Below, piece after piece: positions 14,404-25,322 of a stretch of DNA of 64,000 nt (position 1 is the first letter of the stretch; the number at the start of each line of letters is the position of its first letter). The notes beneath the pieces were generated by a model, which saw only the letters and a program-made list of their open reading frames with translations, made no database searches and had not been told where the DNA came from. Source of the DNA: Gelidibacter sediminis (lineage in GTDB: Bacteria > Bacteroidota > Bacteroidia > Flavobacteriales > Flavobacteriaceae); assembly GCF_004364975.1 (NCBI RefSeq), contig NZ_SOBW01000008.1, positions 1,362,610-1,426,609 of the forward strand, given 5' to 3'. A program made the position numbers and the translations under genes.

Positions 14404-16887
14404 GTGATGACCAAATTCCTACTCTCACTTTTTTTTGTAACACTCAGTTTTCAGGCGTTCTCGCAGCTTAAAGGACAGATTTCAGACACCAATGGCGCAC
14501 CGCTCCCCTATGTAAATATTTATGTAGAAAACTCCTTTATCGGAACCACAAGTAATGACGAAGGAAACTACGAACTTAATCTTAGTAAAGCTGACACCTA
14601 CAGTATTATTTTTCAATTTTTGGGCTACAAAACTGTCAAAAAAGAAGTTGAAATAACCCACTTTCCTTTCACATTAAATGCAACACTTATAGAGGAACAG
14701 ATTTCATTAAATGAAGTTGTGATTAATTCAGATGAGAATCCTGCCGATATCATCATGAGAAAAGCTATCGCTTCTCGAAAAACAAATCTAGAAAAGATAC
14801 AGGCTTTTAAAGCTAATTTTTACTCCCGTGGATTAATTCGCATAAAAAATGCCCCAGAAAAGTTTTTTGGTCAAACCATGGACGATTTTATGGTAGGCCT
14901 AGATTCGACACGGAGCGGCATCTTGTACTTATCTGAAACCATTTCAGAAATTGACTATATGCATCCCGACAAGCTGAAGGAAAAAATTATTGCCTCAAAA
15001 GTAAGTGGCGATAGTAATGGTTTTAGCTTTAATACGGCAAGTGATGTCGATTTCAATTTTTATAATAATACGATCGAACTGGGCAATCACATCATCTCAC
15101 CAATTGCAGATTTTGCTTTTGATTATTACAACTATAAATTAGAAGGTGTTTTTTATGATGATAAAGGTAACCTTATCAATAAAATCAGAGTAATTCCGAA
15201 GCGAGAAAACGATCGCATTTTTTCTGGCAGCATTTACATTGTAGACAACCAATGGACCATTTATGCCGTCGAATTGGGTATTACAGGAATTCAAGCGCAA
15301 ATTCCGCCAGCAGAAGTGATCACCATCACACAAAACTTCTCGTATTCAGAGAAAGATCAACTCTGGGTCATTATTTCTCAGGGCATTGATTTTAGTTATG
15401 CGCTATTCGGGTTTAAAGGTGATGGCCGTTATACTGCTGTATACAGCAATTACAATTTCGCACCGCAATTGAGCAAAAAATCATTCGGCAAGGAAATATT
15501 ATCATTTGCAACCGAAGCAAACCAAAAAGATTCCGCCTATTGGAAAAGTGTTAGACCAGTACCTTTAACTGATGAAGAAGTTAGCGACTATTTGGTAAAA
15601 GACAGTATCCAAACGCTTAGGAAATCTAAATCCTACCTCGATTCTATTGATGCAAAAAATAACGTTTTCAAAATACAAAACCTTCTTTTTGGATATAACC
15701 ACAAAAACTCTTTCAAAGATTGGAGCTTAGGTTATAGCTCCCCATTATCTGGTTTGCAATTCAATACCGTTCAAGGCTATAACTCAAAATTAATTTTCTC
15801 TTACCGTAAAAATCAGGATGAGTATAAACGTTATTTTTCAGCCAATACAACTTTACAATATGGTATCTCTGAGGAGCGCTTAAGAGCAACTGCTACATTC
15901 AGGTATAAATTCAATAATGTTAACAAACCATTCTTGACGGTGTCTGGAGGTGTCCAAGTACAGCAATTTAATGAGGCTCAACCTATTTCTCCCTTAGTAA
16001 ATTCAGTGAGTTCCTTGTTTTTTGAGGATAATTATATGAAGGTTTATGATAAAAGCTACGCCGAAGTGACTTATTCTCAAGAAATTTTTAATGGCACTAC
16101 TATTTATAGCCGTATAGCTTATGAGCGCCGCAAAGCCTTATTAAATACTACTGCCCAGGTGTTTCTTAATGACCAAAAGGATGCTTACACTAGCAATCAT
16201 CCACTCAATCCGATGGCCTATGGAGTTCCTGCTTTTGAAACGTATCAACTTTTAAAATTAAATCTGAATGCGCGTTTTAATTTTGGACAGGAATATTTGA
16301 GTTATCCAGATAGCAAGATTAATATCCCCAACAGTAAATACCCTACGCTATATTTGGGCTATGAAAAAGGATTTGCCGGTTCAGAACAACAGTATAATTT
16401 TGATCAACTCAAGTTAGGACTGACACAACGTTTTAATGTAAGCAATAAAGGCGATTTTAAATATAACCTTAAAGCAGGAACCTTTATTAATGCTGATGGA
16501 ATAGGGTTAATGGATTTTTACCACCCAAATGGAAACCAAACCCATGTGGGGACGGCAAGTTCTTATTTAAACGTGTTTAACAACTTGCCGTATTATGCAT
16601 TAAGCACCAACAATTCATATGTAGAACTGCATGCCGAACATGATTTTAAAGGTTTACTATTAAGTCGCGTGCCATTACTCAATAAATTAAATTATAACCT
16701 GGTAATTGGCGCACACGCCTTTGCTACAGAGCACCAAAAACCATATCAGGAATTTTCAGTGGGCTTAGACAATATAGGTTTTAAGAAATTTAGACTATTA
16801 AGAATTGATTATGTGCGGTCCTATCAAAATGGCTACCAAGGCGATGCGGTAATTTTTGGATTGAAGTTTTTAAATTTTATTGAATAA
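14404..16887 (+). CDS. DUF5686 outer-membrane protein with carboxypeptidase-regulatory domain
   Basis: 827 residues. A signal peptide ending near FQAFSQ is followed by a carboxypeptidase-regulatory-like beta-sandwich (about 22-110: LKGQISDTNGAPLPYVNIYVENSFIGTTS, TNDEGNYEL-type turn, FLGYKTVKKEVE). The remainder fits the DUF5686 family: a long region with alternating aromatic beta strands in its second half that ends in FGLKFLNFIE, a pattern typical of outer-membrane barrels with a C-terminal aromatic residue. This family resembles TonB-dependent receptor accessories, but the function is unknown. It is the last gene before the 2-kb hairpin array, and its stop codon is 38 bases from the first unit. 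Confidence 0.85.
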   Translation: MMTKFLLSLFFVTLSFQAFSQLKGQISDTNGAPLPYVNIYVENSFIGTTSNDEGNYELNLSKADTYSIIFQFLGYKTVKKEVEITHFPFTLNATLIEEQISLNEVVINSDENPADIIMRKAIASRKTNLEKIQAFKANFYSRGLIRIKNAPEKFFGQTMDDFMVGLDSTRSGILYLSETISEIDYMHPDKLKEKIIASKVSGDSNGFSFNTASDVDFNFYNNTIELGNHIISPIADFAFDYYNYKLEGVFYDDKGNLINKIRVIPKRENDRIFSGSIYIVDNQWTIYAVELGITGIQAQIPPAEVITITQNFSYSEKDQLWVIISQGIDFSYALFGFKGDGRYTAVYSNYNFAPQLSKKSFGKEILSFATEANQKDSAYWKSVRPVPLTDEEVSDYLVKDSIQTLRKSKSYLDSIDAKNNVFKIQNLLFGYNHKNSFKDWSLGYSSPLSGLQFNTVQGYNSKLIFSYRKNQDEYKRYFSANTTLQYGISEERLRATATFRYKFNNVNKPFLTVSGGVQVQQFNEAQPISPLVNSVSSLFFEDNYMKVYDKSYAEVTYSQEIFNGTTIYSRIAYERRKALLNTTAQVFLNDQKDAYTSNHPLNPMAYGVPAFETYQLLKLNLNARFNFGQEYLSYPDSKINIPNSKYPTLYLGYEKGFAGSEQQYNFDQLKLGLTQRFNVSNKGDFKYNLKAGTFINADGIGLMDFYHPNGNQTHVGTASSYLNVFNNLPYYALSTNNSYVELHAEHDFKGLLLSRVPLLNKLNYNLVIGAHAFATEHQKPYQEFSVGLDNIGFKKFRLLRIDYVRSYQNGYQGDAVIFGLKFLNFIE

Positions 16888-16924
16888 CACTATCACTGCA
16901 AGTCTTTTCAAACAACTATGCTGT

Positions 16925-18963
16925 TGTCACTTCGAGTATTTTTCAAGAACGATAGTGATTGAAAAATATATCGAGAAGCGATCTTTATATTTACTTCCTT
17001 TCTATCACGGTTCTCGATACATTTTAAACAGCTTTCTTTCAGACGCTATTTAAAACACTCGAACTGACATTATTTTTTTCAAACAACTATCCTGTTGTCA
17101 CTTCGAGTGTTTTTCAAGAACGACAGTGATTGAAAAATGTATCGAGAAGCGATCTATAATATATACTTCCATACTAACACGGTTCTCGATACATTTTAAA
17201 CAGCTTTCATTCAGACGCTATTTAAAACACTCGAACTGACATTATTTTTTTCAAACAACTATCCTGTTGTCACTTCGAGTGTTTTTCAAGAACGACAGTG
17301 ATTGAAAAATGTATCGAGAAGCGATCTAATAATATTTACCACCTTACTAACACTGTTCTCGATACATTTTAAACAGCTCTCTATCAGACGCTATTTAAAA
17401 CACTCGAACTGACATTATTTTTTAAAAAAACTACCATGTTGTCACTTCGAGTGTTTTTCAAGAACGACAGTGATTGGAAAATGTATCGAGAAGCGATCTT
17501 TAAGATTTACTTCCTTTCTATCACGGTTCTCGATACATTTTAAACAGCTTTCTTTCAGACGCTATTTAAAACACTCGAACTGACATTATTTTTTAAAAAA
17601 ACTACCATGTTGTCACTTCGAGTGTTTTTCAAGAACGACAGTGATTGGAAAATGTATCGAGAAGCGATCTTTAAGATTTACTTCCTTTCTATCACGGTTC
17701 TCGATACATTTTAAACAGCTTTCTTTCAGACGCTATTTAAAACACTCGAACTGACATTATTTTTTAAAAAAACTACCATGTTGTCACTTCGAGTGTTTTT
17801 CAAGAACGACAGTGATTGGAAAATGTATCGAGAAGCGATCTTTAATATTTACTTCCTTTCTATCACGGTTCTCGATACATTTTAAATAGCTTTCTTTCAG
17901 ACGCTATTTAAAACACTCAAACTGACATTATTTTTTAAATAAAACTACCATGTTGACACTTCGAGTGTTTTTCAAGAACGATAGTGATTGAAAAATATAT
18001 CGAGAAGCGATTTAATAATAATCATCTCCAAATCTAACACGGTTCTCGATACATTTTAAATAGCTTTCTTTCAGACGCTATTTAAAACACTCAAACTGAC
18101 ATTATTTTTTAAAAAAACTACCATGTTGTCACTTCGAGTGTTTTTCATGAACGACAGTGATTGGAAAATGTATCGAGAAGCGATCTTTAATATTTACTTC
18201 CTTTCTATCACGGTTCTCGATACATTTTAAATAGCTTTCTTTCAGACGCTATTTAAAACACTCAAACTGACATTATTTTTTAAATAAAACTACCATGTTG
18301 ACACTTCGAGTGTTTTTCAAGAACGATAGTGATTGAAAAATATATCGAGAAGCGATTTAATAATAATCATCTCCAAATCTAACACGGTTCTCGATACATT
18401 TTAAATAGCTTTCTTTCAGACGCTATTTAAAACACTCAAACTGACATTATTTTTTAAAAAAACTACCATGTTGTCACTTCGAGTGTTTTTCAAGAACGAC
18501 AGTGATTGAAAAATGTATCGAGAAGCGATCTAATAATATTTACCACCTTACTAACACTGTTCTCGATACATTTTAAACAGCTCTCTATCAGACGCTATTT
18601 AAAACACTCGAACTGACATTATTTTATTCAAGCAACGTCCTTATTGTCACTTCGAGTGTTTTTCAAGAACGACAGTGATTGAAAAATGTATCGAGAAGCG
18701 ATCTTTTATATTTACTTCCTTACTAACACTGTTCTCAATAAATTTCAAACAGCTCTCTTTCAGACGCTATTTAAAACACTCAAACTGACATTATTTTTTA
18801 AAAAAACTACCATGTTGTCACTTCGAGTGTTTTTCAAGAACGACAGTGATTGAAAAATGTATCGAGAAGCGATTTAATAATAATCATCTCCAAATCTAAC
18901 ACGGTTCTCGATACATTTTAAATAGCTTTCTTTCAGACGCTATTTAAAACACTTGAACTGACA
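16925..18963. repeat. Tandem array of 12 long inverted-repeat units, period 171-173 bp
   Basis: Units start at 16925, 17096, 17268, 17440, 17611, 17782, 17954, 18127, 18299, 18472, 18645 and 18816. Each has an outer arm pair (TGTCACTTCGAGTGTTTT against AAAACACTCGAACTGACA, one mismatch) and an inner perfect 15-bp pair (AAAATGTATCGAGAA against TTCTCGATACATTTT). Unpaired stretches of about 19 and 26 nt lie between the arms, with a central segment of about 30-35 nt and a T/A-rich spacer of 25-27 nt between units. Units 4 and 5 are identical over 171 bp; units 6-7 and 8-9 form a 345-bp duplication with one difference. No open frame of useful length is present. The array fills the space between two convergent genes. 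Short single versions of such hairpins are familiar between flavobacterial genes; 12 in tandem is unusual. Confidence 0.95.
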
Positions 18964-23954: not shown

Positions 23955-25322
23955 ATTTACGCAATATTAGACATAGAAACCACTGGCGGTAAATTCAATG
24001 AAGAAGGCATCACTGAAATCGCTATTTACAAATTTGATGGTCATACGGTAGTGGACCAATTTATCAGTCTTGTCAATCCTGAACGGGAAATACAACCTTT
24101 TGTAGTCAACTTAACTGGAATCAATAGCAATATGCTCCGCTCAGCACCAAAATTTTATGAGGTTGCCAAACGGATTGTTGAAATGACGGAAGACTGCATT
24201 ATAGTAGCACATAATTCAGAATTTGATTATCGTATTTTACGCACTGAATTCAGCCGACTTGGCTTTGAATTCGAACGTAAGACACTTTGTACGGTTGAAC
24301 TGTCCAAACAGCTAATGCCCGAACAGGATTCGTATAGTTTGGGCAAGCTTACCAGAGCGTTAGGCATCCCGGTAAGTGATAGGCATAGAGCATCTGGAGA
24401 CGCATTAGCTACCGTAAAATTGTTTAAAATTCTGCTTGCTAAAGATCTTAATAAACAAATCATTCAAGACGCGGTAAAGGCGGAACCAAAGTACAAGATA
24501 TCAACAAATCATAAGCATATCCTAGACGATTTACCATCTATTACAGGAGTATATTATCTACATGATACCTATGGTAAAATCATTTTTATTGGCAAGAGTA
24601 AAAACATTAGGAACAGAGTCAATCAACATTTTACAAGCTCCAATCCTAAATCAAAAAAAATGCAGAACCAAGTAGCCGCCGTAACTTATGAAGCTACAGG
24701 TAGTGAATTGGTAGCTATGCTAAAAGAGAGTGCAGAAATAAAAAAAACCAAGCCCTCTTTTAATAGGACCATGAGAAGAAACAAATTTACGCATGCACTC
24801 TATTGTTTTACAGATGAGAAGGGGTATATTAATTTAAGGATTGATGCGGCAGATGGTAGAAAAAAAGCCATCACTACATTCACCAATTATCAAAGTGGTA
24901 AGCAGTTTTTGATAAACGTTATTGAAAAGTATAAGCTGTGTCCCAAATTAGTGGGTCTGGACGCTACAAAGAAAAGCTGCTTTAAATTTTCTATTGGTGA
25001 ATGCGCAGGCGCGTGTATAGGTGAAGAAACTTCAGAAAGCTATAATCTCAGAGTACAAGAGGTAATAGCTGCAAACATTTTTGATAATCAAGACTTTATT
25101 TTAATTGACAAAGGAAGAGCCGTAGACGAACATAGTGTATTATTAATTGAAGACGGCATTTTTAAAGGACTTGGTTATTACAACCTCAATTATCAAATTA
25201 CCAATAAAAAAGTATTGGAATCCATAATTACCCCAATGGAAAACAATAGAGACACCATACATATTATTCAAACTTATCTCAGAAAAAACAAACAAATTAA
25301 ACGCATTAACCTAACTCAATGA
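23955..25322 (+). CDS. DEDDh exonuclease fused to GIY-YIG/UvrC-like nuclease
   Basis: About 455 residues if translation begins at ATT 23955. Domains: a DNA polymerase III epsilon-like 3'-5' exonuclease (1-165) with D6 and E8 in LDIETTGG, NSEFDYRIL and HRASGDALATV supplying DEDDh; then GIY-YIG (about 198-275: TGVYYLHDTYGKIIFIGKSKN, NRVNQHF); then a UvrC-like cysteine segment (KSCFKFSIGECAGACIGE). A role in DNA repair incision is inferred. No ATG, GTG or TTG exists in this frame between the TAG at 23916 and D6. The first standard candidate, GTG 24051, would remove the catalytic motif, so a rare start or a length error in the A8 run (23939-23946) is needed. Its stop overlaps the next ATG by 4 bases. 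Confidence 0.85.
   Translation: MYAILDIETTGGKFNEEGITEIAIYKFDGHTVVDQFISLVNPEREIQPFVVNLTGINSNMLRSAPKFYEVAKRIVEMTEDCIIVAHNSEFDYRILRTEFSRLGFEFERKTLCTVELSKQLMPEQDSYSLGKLTRALGIPVSDRHRASGDALATVKLFKILLAKDLNKQIIQDAVKAEPKYKISTNHKHILDDLPSITGVYYLHDTYGKIIFIGKSKNIRNRVNQHFTSSNPKSKKMQNQVAAVTYEATGSELVAMLKESAEIKKTKPSFNRTMRRNKFTHALYCFTDEKGYINLRIDAADGRKKAITTFTNYQSGKQFLINVIEKYKLCPKLVGLDATKKSCFKFSIGECAGACIGEETSESYNLRVQEVIAANIFDNQDFILIDKGRAVDEHSVLLIEDGIFKGLGYYNLNYQITNKKVLESIITPMENNRDTIHIIQTYLRKNKQIKRINLTQ

Follow-up and report, generated by a model that had tools for sequence, protein, structure and literature searches.

How does a bacterial chromosome come to hold twelve similar palindromic units in tandem between two converging genes, and do they serve any purpose there? 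The question is raised by a stretch of 64,000 nucleotides of Gelidibacter sediminis (contig NZ_SOBW01000008.1, positions 1,362,610 to 1,426,609; hereafter the window, whose own numbering is used below), which contains an array of this kind. We consider it probable that the array arose by local tandem amplification of a gene-less, non-autonomous mobile palindromic element, belonging to a system that joins palindromes of this design to small nucleases of the GIY-YIG superfamily. In complete relatives of the element, the tip of the inner stem houses a small UPF0213-like GIY-YIG gene, and the linkage of enzyme and repeat is well supported.

The array and the fold of its units

The first-pass annotation had described twelve tandem units with a period of 171-173 bp, free of any coding frame and filling a convergent gene junction, and that description stands. 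Tandem Repeats Finder places the repeat at 16922-18963 (period 171, 11.9 copies, 91% matches), and a script-based delimitation yields 12 units over 16925-18963, each of 145-148 bp and spaced 171-173 bp from start to start. The array takes up the gap between the convergent gene ends at 16887 and 18985, and the longest reading frames inside it are of 57 and 55 aa. A 14-base end motif, CACTCGAACTGACA, is matched 24 times in the window with up to 2 mismatches, always within the array; 100 shuffles gave a mean of 0.20 matches and a maximum of 2. Pairwise identity among the units is 86-100%, and the spacers between them are T-rich.

The same annotation had called the units hairpins. Strong folding is indeed found, but a unit is more than a simple hairpin: all 12 are inverted, head-to-head pairs of TGTCA-tagged hairpins, and the predicted fold is a cloverleaf with an outer stem, two side arms and an inner stem. 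The left half reads TGTCA-N-TTCGAGTG, a side-arm hairpin and TATCGAGAA, and leads into a tip of ~35-40 bases; the right half continues with TTCTCGATA, the second side-arm hairpin and CACTCGAA-N-TGACA, some units departing from this pattern by single bases. Folded as single-stranded DNA, nine of the 10 units that are left when the exact duplicates (units 5 and 9) are set aside reached z scores of -5.4 to -8.3; the tenth, unit 11, has a damaged inner stem and for that reason folds weakly (z -1.2). TGTC stands at the unit ends, with TGAC at two left ends, and the tag is paired within the outer stem in most folds. A consensus of 18 units (10 from the window, 7 and 1 from two congeners, labelled G001 and G006) has 42 pairs, 4 of them changed on both sides; covariation is only modest because most pairs are invariant.

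Two sets of candidate features were rejected. An excess of sigma-70 promoter sites in a scan (23 sites vs 9.3 expected) is a by-product of motifs that repeat in every unit. The window had no Rfam match at gathering score; 10 weaker ones (E up to 1) fell far short of the family cut-offs and were dropped.

A sister array with a GIY-YIG gene

A search with the window array revealed further loci of the same design, with different interiors, in the same genome (Table 1). One of them is a sister array of 11 units, two of which (480-481 bp) carry an intact 96-aa GIY-YIG open reading frame (ORF) in the tip of the inner stem. The first 60 bases of its gene-less unit 3 are identical to those of an ORF-bearing unit, and the window units have end motifs in common with the units of the sister array. 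The ORF fits the GIY-YIG nuclease superfamily, matching PF01541 at 60.7 bits (cut-off 22.6) with the characteristic Y, Y, R, H and E present, and a profile built from 11 aligned proteins, this one among them, retrieves the UPF0213 structures 1zg2 and 1ywl. PF01541 was the only domain in a Pfam scan covering three GIY-YIG proteins, for which NCBIfam held no fitting model.

Another small GIY-YIG gene in this genome (L015) has a palindrome of a different kind, TGTCAGGCTGAGCGCAGTCGAAGCC, on its flanks. A single half-unit at C2:1191998 (L012:1485-1576), which matches the left border and the start of unit 1 over 92 bp at 92% identity, is a dispersed partial copy. At C2:961.8-964.8 kb (L246:1019-4023), a 523-aa ORF is flanked by two clusters of 119-120 bp units.

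GIY-YIG genes and flanking palindromes

The association was examined in the 150 bp on each side of GIY-YIG genes, inverted-repeat scores of at least 14 being counted. A first set of 91 loci came from 98 searched relatives, presumably Flavobacteriales, and comprised the 30 best-per-genome loci, L015 and 60 further loci among the matches listed; frames with stops, contig-end matches, already-covered stretches and two matches (G066:C8, G011:C28) were left out. The score was reached by 37/91 loci, vs 0/77, 1/56 and 0/61 in three sets of control genes and 1/910 shuffles. Flanks whose nearest [C/T]GTCA tag pointed inward numbered 95, against 25 with an outward tag, and 35 of the 91 loci had inward tags on both sides (controls 1/77, 0/56, 1/61). 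Among 48 loci scoring at least 12, the tags were mutually aligned in 26.

A broader scan of genome_contigs took in the best 80 of 537 confirmed relatives, from at least 586 stretches at the pattern stage, and carries a bias in that it was headed by an Azospirillum protein picked after its flanks had been seen. Here 55/78 loci scored at least 14, compared with 2/123 neighbour ORFs and 0/780 shuffles, and both tags faced inward in 40/80 (neighbour ORFs 8/123, shuffles 31/800). The tags of neighbour ORFs lean outward (p 2e-4), as expected, because the nearest tag belongs to the adjoining GIY-YIG element. By groups that we assigned from titles, the score was reached by 4/5 deltaproteobacterial loci and 1/1 from Anaerolineae, and most loci outside these two groups and the four others given further below are from Proteobacteria. 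A frequent arrangement in this set is [C/T]GTCATTCCCGCGAAGGCGGGAATCCAG ... GIY-YIG ... CTGGATTCCCGCCTTCGCGGGAATGAC[A/G], in agreement with the layout published for CGTC-tagged repeats (a tag, then AT, a short stem and a CCA tail). Of 169 proteins, drawn from 171 loci, 166-169 have each of the conserved residues (Tyr, Tyr, Arg, His, Glu).

Some GIY-YIG genes were seen by eye in other company. Those at L018:1440-1850 (in the same genome, C1:740.7 kb), L126 and L142 lie between repeated tRNA-gene-like pieces, and others (L239:567-1716, L240:734-1676, L241:773-1509, L242:729-1668) lie in tandem units of 304-364 bp with pieces of tRNA genes, as if the palindromes had been replaced by tRNA arms (L241 and L242 viewed as consensus units). 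In three genera (L114, L123, L133), GIY-YIG ORFs stand between two copies of a conserved, GGNGGNGCNGGNTT-like sequence at the start of a gene that we take to be epimerase-like.

Repeat type and nuclease clade

The kind of repeat follows the kind of nuclease. Flanks of the 91 loci differ in the base that comes next to the tag on its far side: for C-x-D proteins it was T in 3 and another base in 37, for the rest T in 40 and another base in 15 (Fisher p 7e-11, the two flanks of one gene not being independent). Placed on a protein tree, poorly resolved at 98 columns, of the 114 loci with agreeing inward tags, the base-after-tag label needs 15 changes, compared with a shuffled mean of 33, and none of 500 shuffles came as low.

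The association also appears when the search starts from the DNA. The pattern GCAGGAATC followed by its complement at 335-365 bp gave 13 pairs in 11/397 genomes; nine of them enclose a GIY-YIG ORF (E <= 4e-40) and four do not. This count is biased in that both spacing and repeat were chosen after GIY-YIG loci had been seen, and one pair (L326) is an earlier locus (L128). With a control spacing of 235-265 bp, 4 pairs were obtained in 395 genomes, one of them with a GIY-YIG remnant. Viral contigs held 39 pairs: both of those with real tags contain GIY-YIG, and the other 37 have neither tags nor GIY-YIG.

History of the junction and of the sister-array site

Loci of this design beyond the junction, for which the first-pass annotation had suggested a search in the genome and its relatives, were found in both. 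The same gene pair was located in eight congeners, where G001 has 7 units and G006 ~1.5; in the other six, four repeat motifs are all absent within 1.5 kb, the spacers being nearly empty (7-36 bp) in three and longer and unrelated in the other three. The site of the sister array has a similar distribution: 11 units in this genome, 13 or more in G001 (2 with ORF), 2 without ORF in G006, and no motif within ~1.5 kb in the six other congeners.

Units of the window array share 92% identity with one another; the figure is 80% against the array that G001 has at this junction, and 69% against the sister array (the G006 junction unit, a 205-base composite, was excluded). The annotation had also raised the case of one array dispersed as an ordinary repeat over many convergent junctions; what is found instead is a set of three arrays in this genome that are 90-93% alike within and 56-69% alike on average between them, the orientation of the units at C2:962 kb being arbitrary in this comparison. 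Lineage-limited occurrence together with local uniformity suggests that the element arrived in, or was retained by, one sub-clade, and that each array was then homogenised locally. In three congeners without the ORF-bearing array (L252, L255, L256), the corresponding site, downstream of a gene that is presumably ahcY, was seen by eye to carry single repeats from other palindrome families, of the ATTGCGAGG and ATTCCTGCG types.

Proposed mechanism and alternatives

A mechanism can be proposed on these grounds. The nuclease would recognise a tagged hairpin, perhaps when it is single-stranded at the replication fork, and cut it; repair of the cut from another copy would then insert or convert copies. 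Such repair-driven copying could account for spread, for tandem arrays and for the uniformity within an array, and loss of the ORF would leave gene-less units that might still be served in trans.

A number of observations weigh against this reading. Cutting of the hairpins and nuclease-driven spread are what we infer; no target-site duplication was recognised at the junction flanks (by eye only, none computed), and slippage or recombination alone could build an array. The full two-sided inward tag is missing in 56/91 relative loci and 40/80 genome_contigs loci, some of the 56 being of a different kind, situated amid tRNA pieces or where the epimerase-like gene begins. A strict tagged-hairpin test, too insensitive to imperfect stems, gave a weak result, with hits on either side in 18/91 loci (controls 2/77, 4/56 and 6/61; shuffles 32/910) and on both sides in 9/91 vs 0 in each comparison set. 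Outside the groups named above, scores of at least 14 were obtained in 0/2 loci of Nitrospirae, 0/1 of Ignavibacteriales, 1/3 of Bacteroidota and 5/9 of candidate phyla. Six alphaproteobacterial plasmid loci include four with this score and one with both nearest tags inward. In one of these six, from Azospirillum lipoferum 4B, the GIY-YIG gene lies between the genes sufB and sufC and is bracketed by two complete head-to-head pairs, which makes its nearest tags point outward; the inward-tag rule is thus not general. Five further loci (E. coli, B. subtilis, Radiobacillus, Vibrio and Cetobacterium), among them yazA of B. subtilis, which lies in an operon, score 7-10.5, with both tags inward in 0/5, which indicates that part of the GIY-YIG family has another role.

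Repeats also occur apart from a close enzyme gene. The G035 assembly (L276, L278) has 68 copies of TGTCASTTCGAGTG, some of them tandemly arrayed. A small cognate GIY-YIG gene was not detected in this assembly, whose only three GIY-YIG matches lie in frames of 602 and 728 aa and in one of 68 aa beside tRNA pieces. In G006, which has 11 repeat copies, only more distant GIY-YIG relatives of the cognate ORF are present (best E 4e-22). The exact motif is found in 8/14 genomes with a close GIY-YIG (E <= 1e-30) and in 10/84 without (p 4e-4), which is only a partial fit.

The alternative that survives best gives the nuclease no part in the process. Unequal recombination and replication slippage would build and homogenise the arrays, and the GIY-YIG gene would be a frequent passenger for which hairpins are a safe landing site. 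Near-identical duplicated units (3 and 10, 4 and 5, 7 and 9) are what slippage or crossover would yield; arrays without an ORF exist in the window, G006 and G035; and other GIY-YIG genes lie in or beside tRNA genes, tandem units included. We regard this explanation as unlikely, although it deserves to be taken seriously, for on its own it leaves unexplained both the agreement of repeat type with nuclease clade and the frequent position of the ORF between inward-facing tags.

Another alternative is a function in place, as a two-way transcription barrier or terminator or as a nucleoid or gyrase site between the convergent genes. The roles first listed for the array were a transcription barrier, a nucleoid- or gyrase-binding site, a source of structured RNA and a selfish repeat. 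The convergent setting, the strong hairpins and the T-rich spacers would suit it, but we find it improbable, because the motifs are missing at the same gene pair in six of the eight congeners and because the sister array lies between co-directional genes (one that we take to be ahcY-like, and a 160-aa ORF). A terminator scan returned 0 sites vs 0.7 expected, and was blind to the window units because it detects only loops of 3-8 bases. It is the selfish repeat that we favour from that list, and the window array is probably without a dedicated function at its junction.

Inverted pairs of tagged palindromes resemble the dimers formed by repetitive extragenic palindromes (REPs) as they are presented in the available part of the survey PMC3733652, and such a pair (a REPIN) could have been mobilised by a REP-associated tyrosine transposase (RAYT) or an IS200-type Y1 transposase. 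There is very little to recommend this idea: the tag is TGTC, not GTAG, and a search for the Y1/RAYT transposase family (PF01797) gave 0 matches in the genome, though it was positive in 5/14 control genomes. An assembly artefact is scarcely credible either, for although the array is known from the assembly alone, it lies inside a 1.45-Mb contig, its units are not all identical, and in G001 this junction is occupied by a separate array of 7 units, on average 80% identical.

Our preferred reading of the array as a locally amplified, gene-less mobile element can be extended, and here we lean towards the extension with less assurance. Standalone UPF0213-like GIY-YIG nucleases may be the dedicated mobilising enzymes of a superfamily of CGTC/TGTC palindromic repeats across bacteria, a second REP-type system parallel to REP-RAYT but of unrelated chemistry, in which the gene-less elements include satellite-like arrays. 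A candidate enzyme is thereby suggested for an extensive class of repeats in bacteria to which none had yet been assigned. Were the link causal, a single small protein and a single hairpin substrate would suffice to test it, it would give a likely role to many genes annotated merely as 'GIY-YIG nuclease family protein', and it would explain the origin of long satellite-like arrays in bacteria.

Features of the locus and of related loci

The coordinates are collected in Table 1. The 213-aa gene on the downstream side of the junction is one that we take to encode a protein-L-isoaspartate methyltransferase, as predicted. Elsewhere in the window, at 24051-25322, there is a 423-aa ORF whose frame (467 aa) contains a GIY-YIG domain; none of the four repeat motifs was found in the 3.2 kb surrounding it.

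Table 1. Positions of the array units, the neighbouring genes and related loci of the same genome (plain numbers, window; C and L, our labels for contigs and loci)
Feature	Coordinates	Strand	Basis
Unit 1 (TGTCA...TGACA inverted hairpin pair)	16925..17069	+	sequence, script, fold
Unit 2	17096..17241	+	script, fold
Unit 3 (100% identity score to unit 10)	17268..17414	+	script, unit comparison
Unit 4 (100% identity score to unit 5)	17440..17585	+	script, unit comparison
Unit 5	17611..17756	+	script, unit comparison
Unit 6	17782..17927	+	script, fold
Unit 7 (100% identity score to unit 9)	17954..18101	+	script, unit comparison
Unit 8	18127..18272	+	script, fold
Unit 9	18299..18446	+	script, unit comparison
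Unit 10	18472..18618	+	script, unit comparison
Unit 11, damaged inner stem (fold z -1.2)	18645..18790	+	script, fold
Unit 12	18816..18963	+	script, fold
Array left border	16891..16924	+	sequence comparison
Convergent gene on the upstream side, 827 aa	14404..16887	+	reading frame; orthologue adjoins the other gene in 8 congeners
Convergent gene on the downstream side, 213 aa	18985..19626	-	reading frame
Sister array, 11 units	C1:664763-667311		search with window array
96-aa GIY-YIG ORFs of the sister array	L009:1552-1842 and L009:2579-2869		
Clusters of 119-bp units	C2:961.8-964.8 kb		search with window array
Looser copies	C1:430.4-430.9 kb and C1:761.7-762.1 kb		search with window array

Comparison with known systems

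Miniature inverted-repeat transposable elements are gene-less inverted-repeat relatives of a gene-bearing element. The likeness to the present case is that gene-less and ORF-bearing units of the sister array have their ends in common, in one instance as the 60-base exact prefix described above. The differences are that the units here form tandem arrays, that no target duplication was recognised (by eye) and that no classical transposase was found.

With the GIY-YIG homing endonucleases and prokaryotic Slx1-like proteins, as covered in the available part of the 2006 survey of the superfamily (PMC1564403), and with the UPF0213 structures 1zg2 and 1ywl, the small standalone proteins share the GIY-YIG catalytic domain (PF01541) only. 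They differ in their linkage to palindromic repeats, and a word count finds 'palindrom' 0 times in the available text of that survey. No introns, inteins or NUMOD domains turned up in the Pfam scan of the three proteins, and no further search was aimed at them. In the open-licence PubMed Central literature, as far as its available text goes, no paper joining GIY-YIG with such repeats was found, broader searches being limited to top-ranked titles and the starts of abstracts.

A further comparison is with the CGTC-tagged REPs. According to the available part of the survey by Di Nocera et al. (2013, PMC3733652), they carry an unpaired CGTC, TGTC or CCTC tag at one end, a stem of 8-9 bp with AT first, a loop of 4-5 bases and a CCA tail; they are mostly head-to-head dimers, Azospirillum lipoferum is among the organisms named, and no associated transposase is reported in that part. 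The window units resemble them in the sequence of the tag (its TGTC variant, although in most folds here it is paired), in being palindromes and in the head-to-head order of all 12 units. They differ in their length of 145-148 bp, in having no AT at the stem base and no CCA tail, and in forming a 12-unit head-to-tail array; CT follows TGTCA, GAAG or GAAC follows the arm, and the arms are longer than the CGTC-REP stems. Because they have neither a short stem that starts with AT nor a CCA tail, the window units are not classed as CGTC REPs. The AT-type repeats around many GIY-YIG genes of the other clade are closer by eye, sharing tag, AT, short stem and CCA tail. Related repeats in the present data are linked to a GIY-YIG gene, the product of which is a nuclease and not a known transposase.

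A parallel in organisation is that of REPs and REPINs with their RAYT, the REPtron, as outlined in the available part of the same survey (PMC3733652). In both cases, a nuclease gene is flanked by repeats that are also found without the gene, and repeat and enzyme vary together. The REP-RAYT system uses an HUH/Y1 enzyme and a GTAG tag where GIY-YIG and TGTC are found here, and in the sister array the gene lies inside the inverted pair. Having neither a Y1 enzyme nor a GTAG tag, the GIY-YIG/palindrome system is not a member of REP-RAYT; by analogy, the best reading is that it would work in the same manner with another enzyme.
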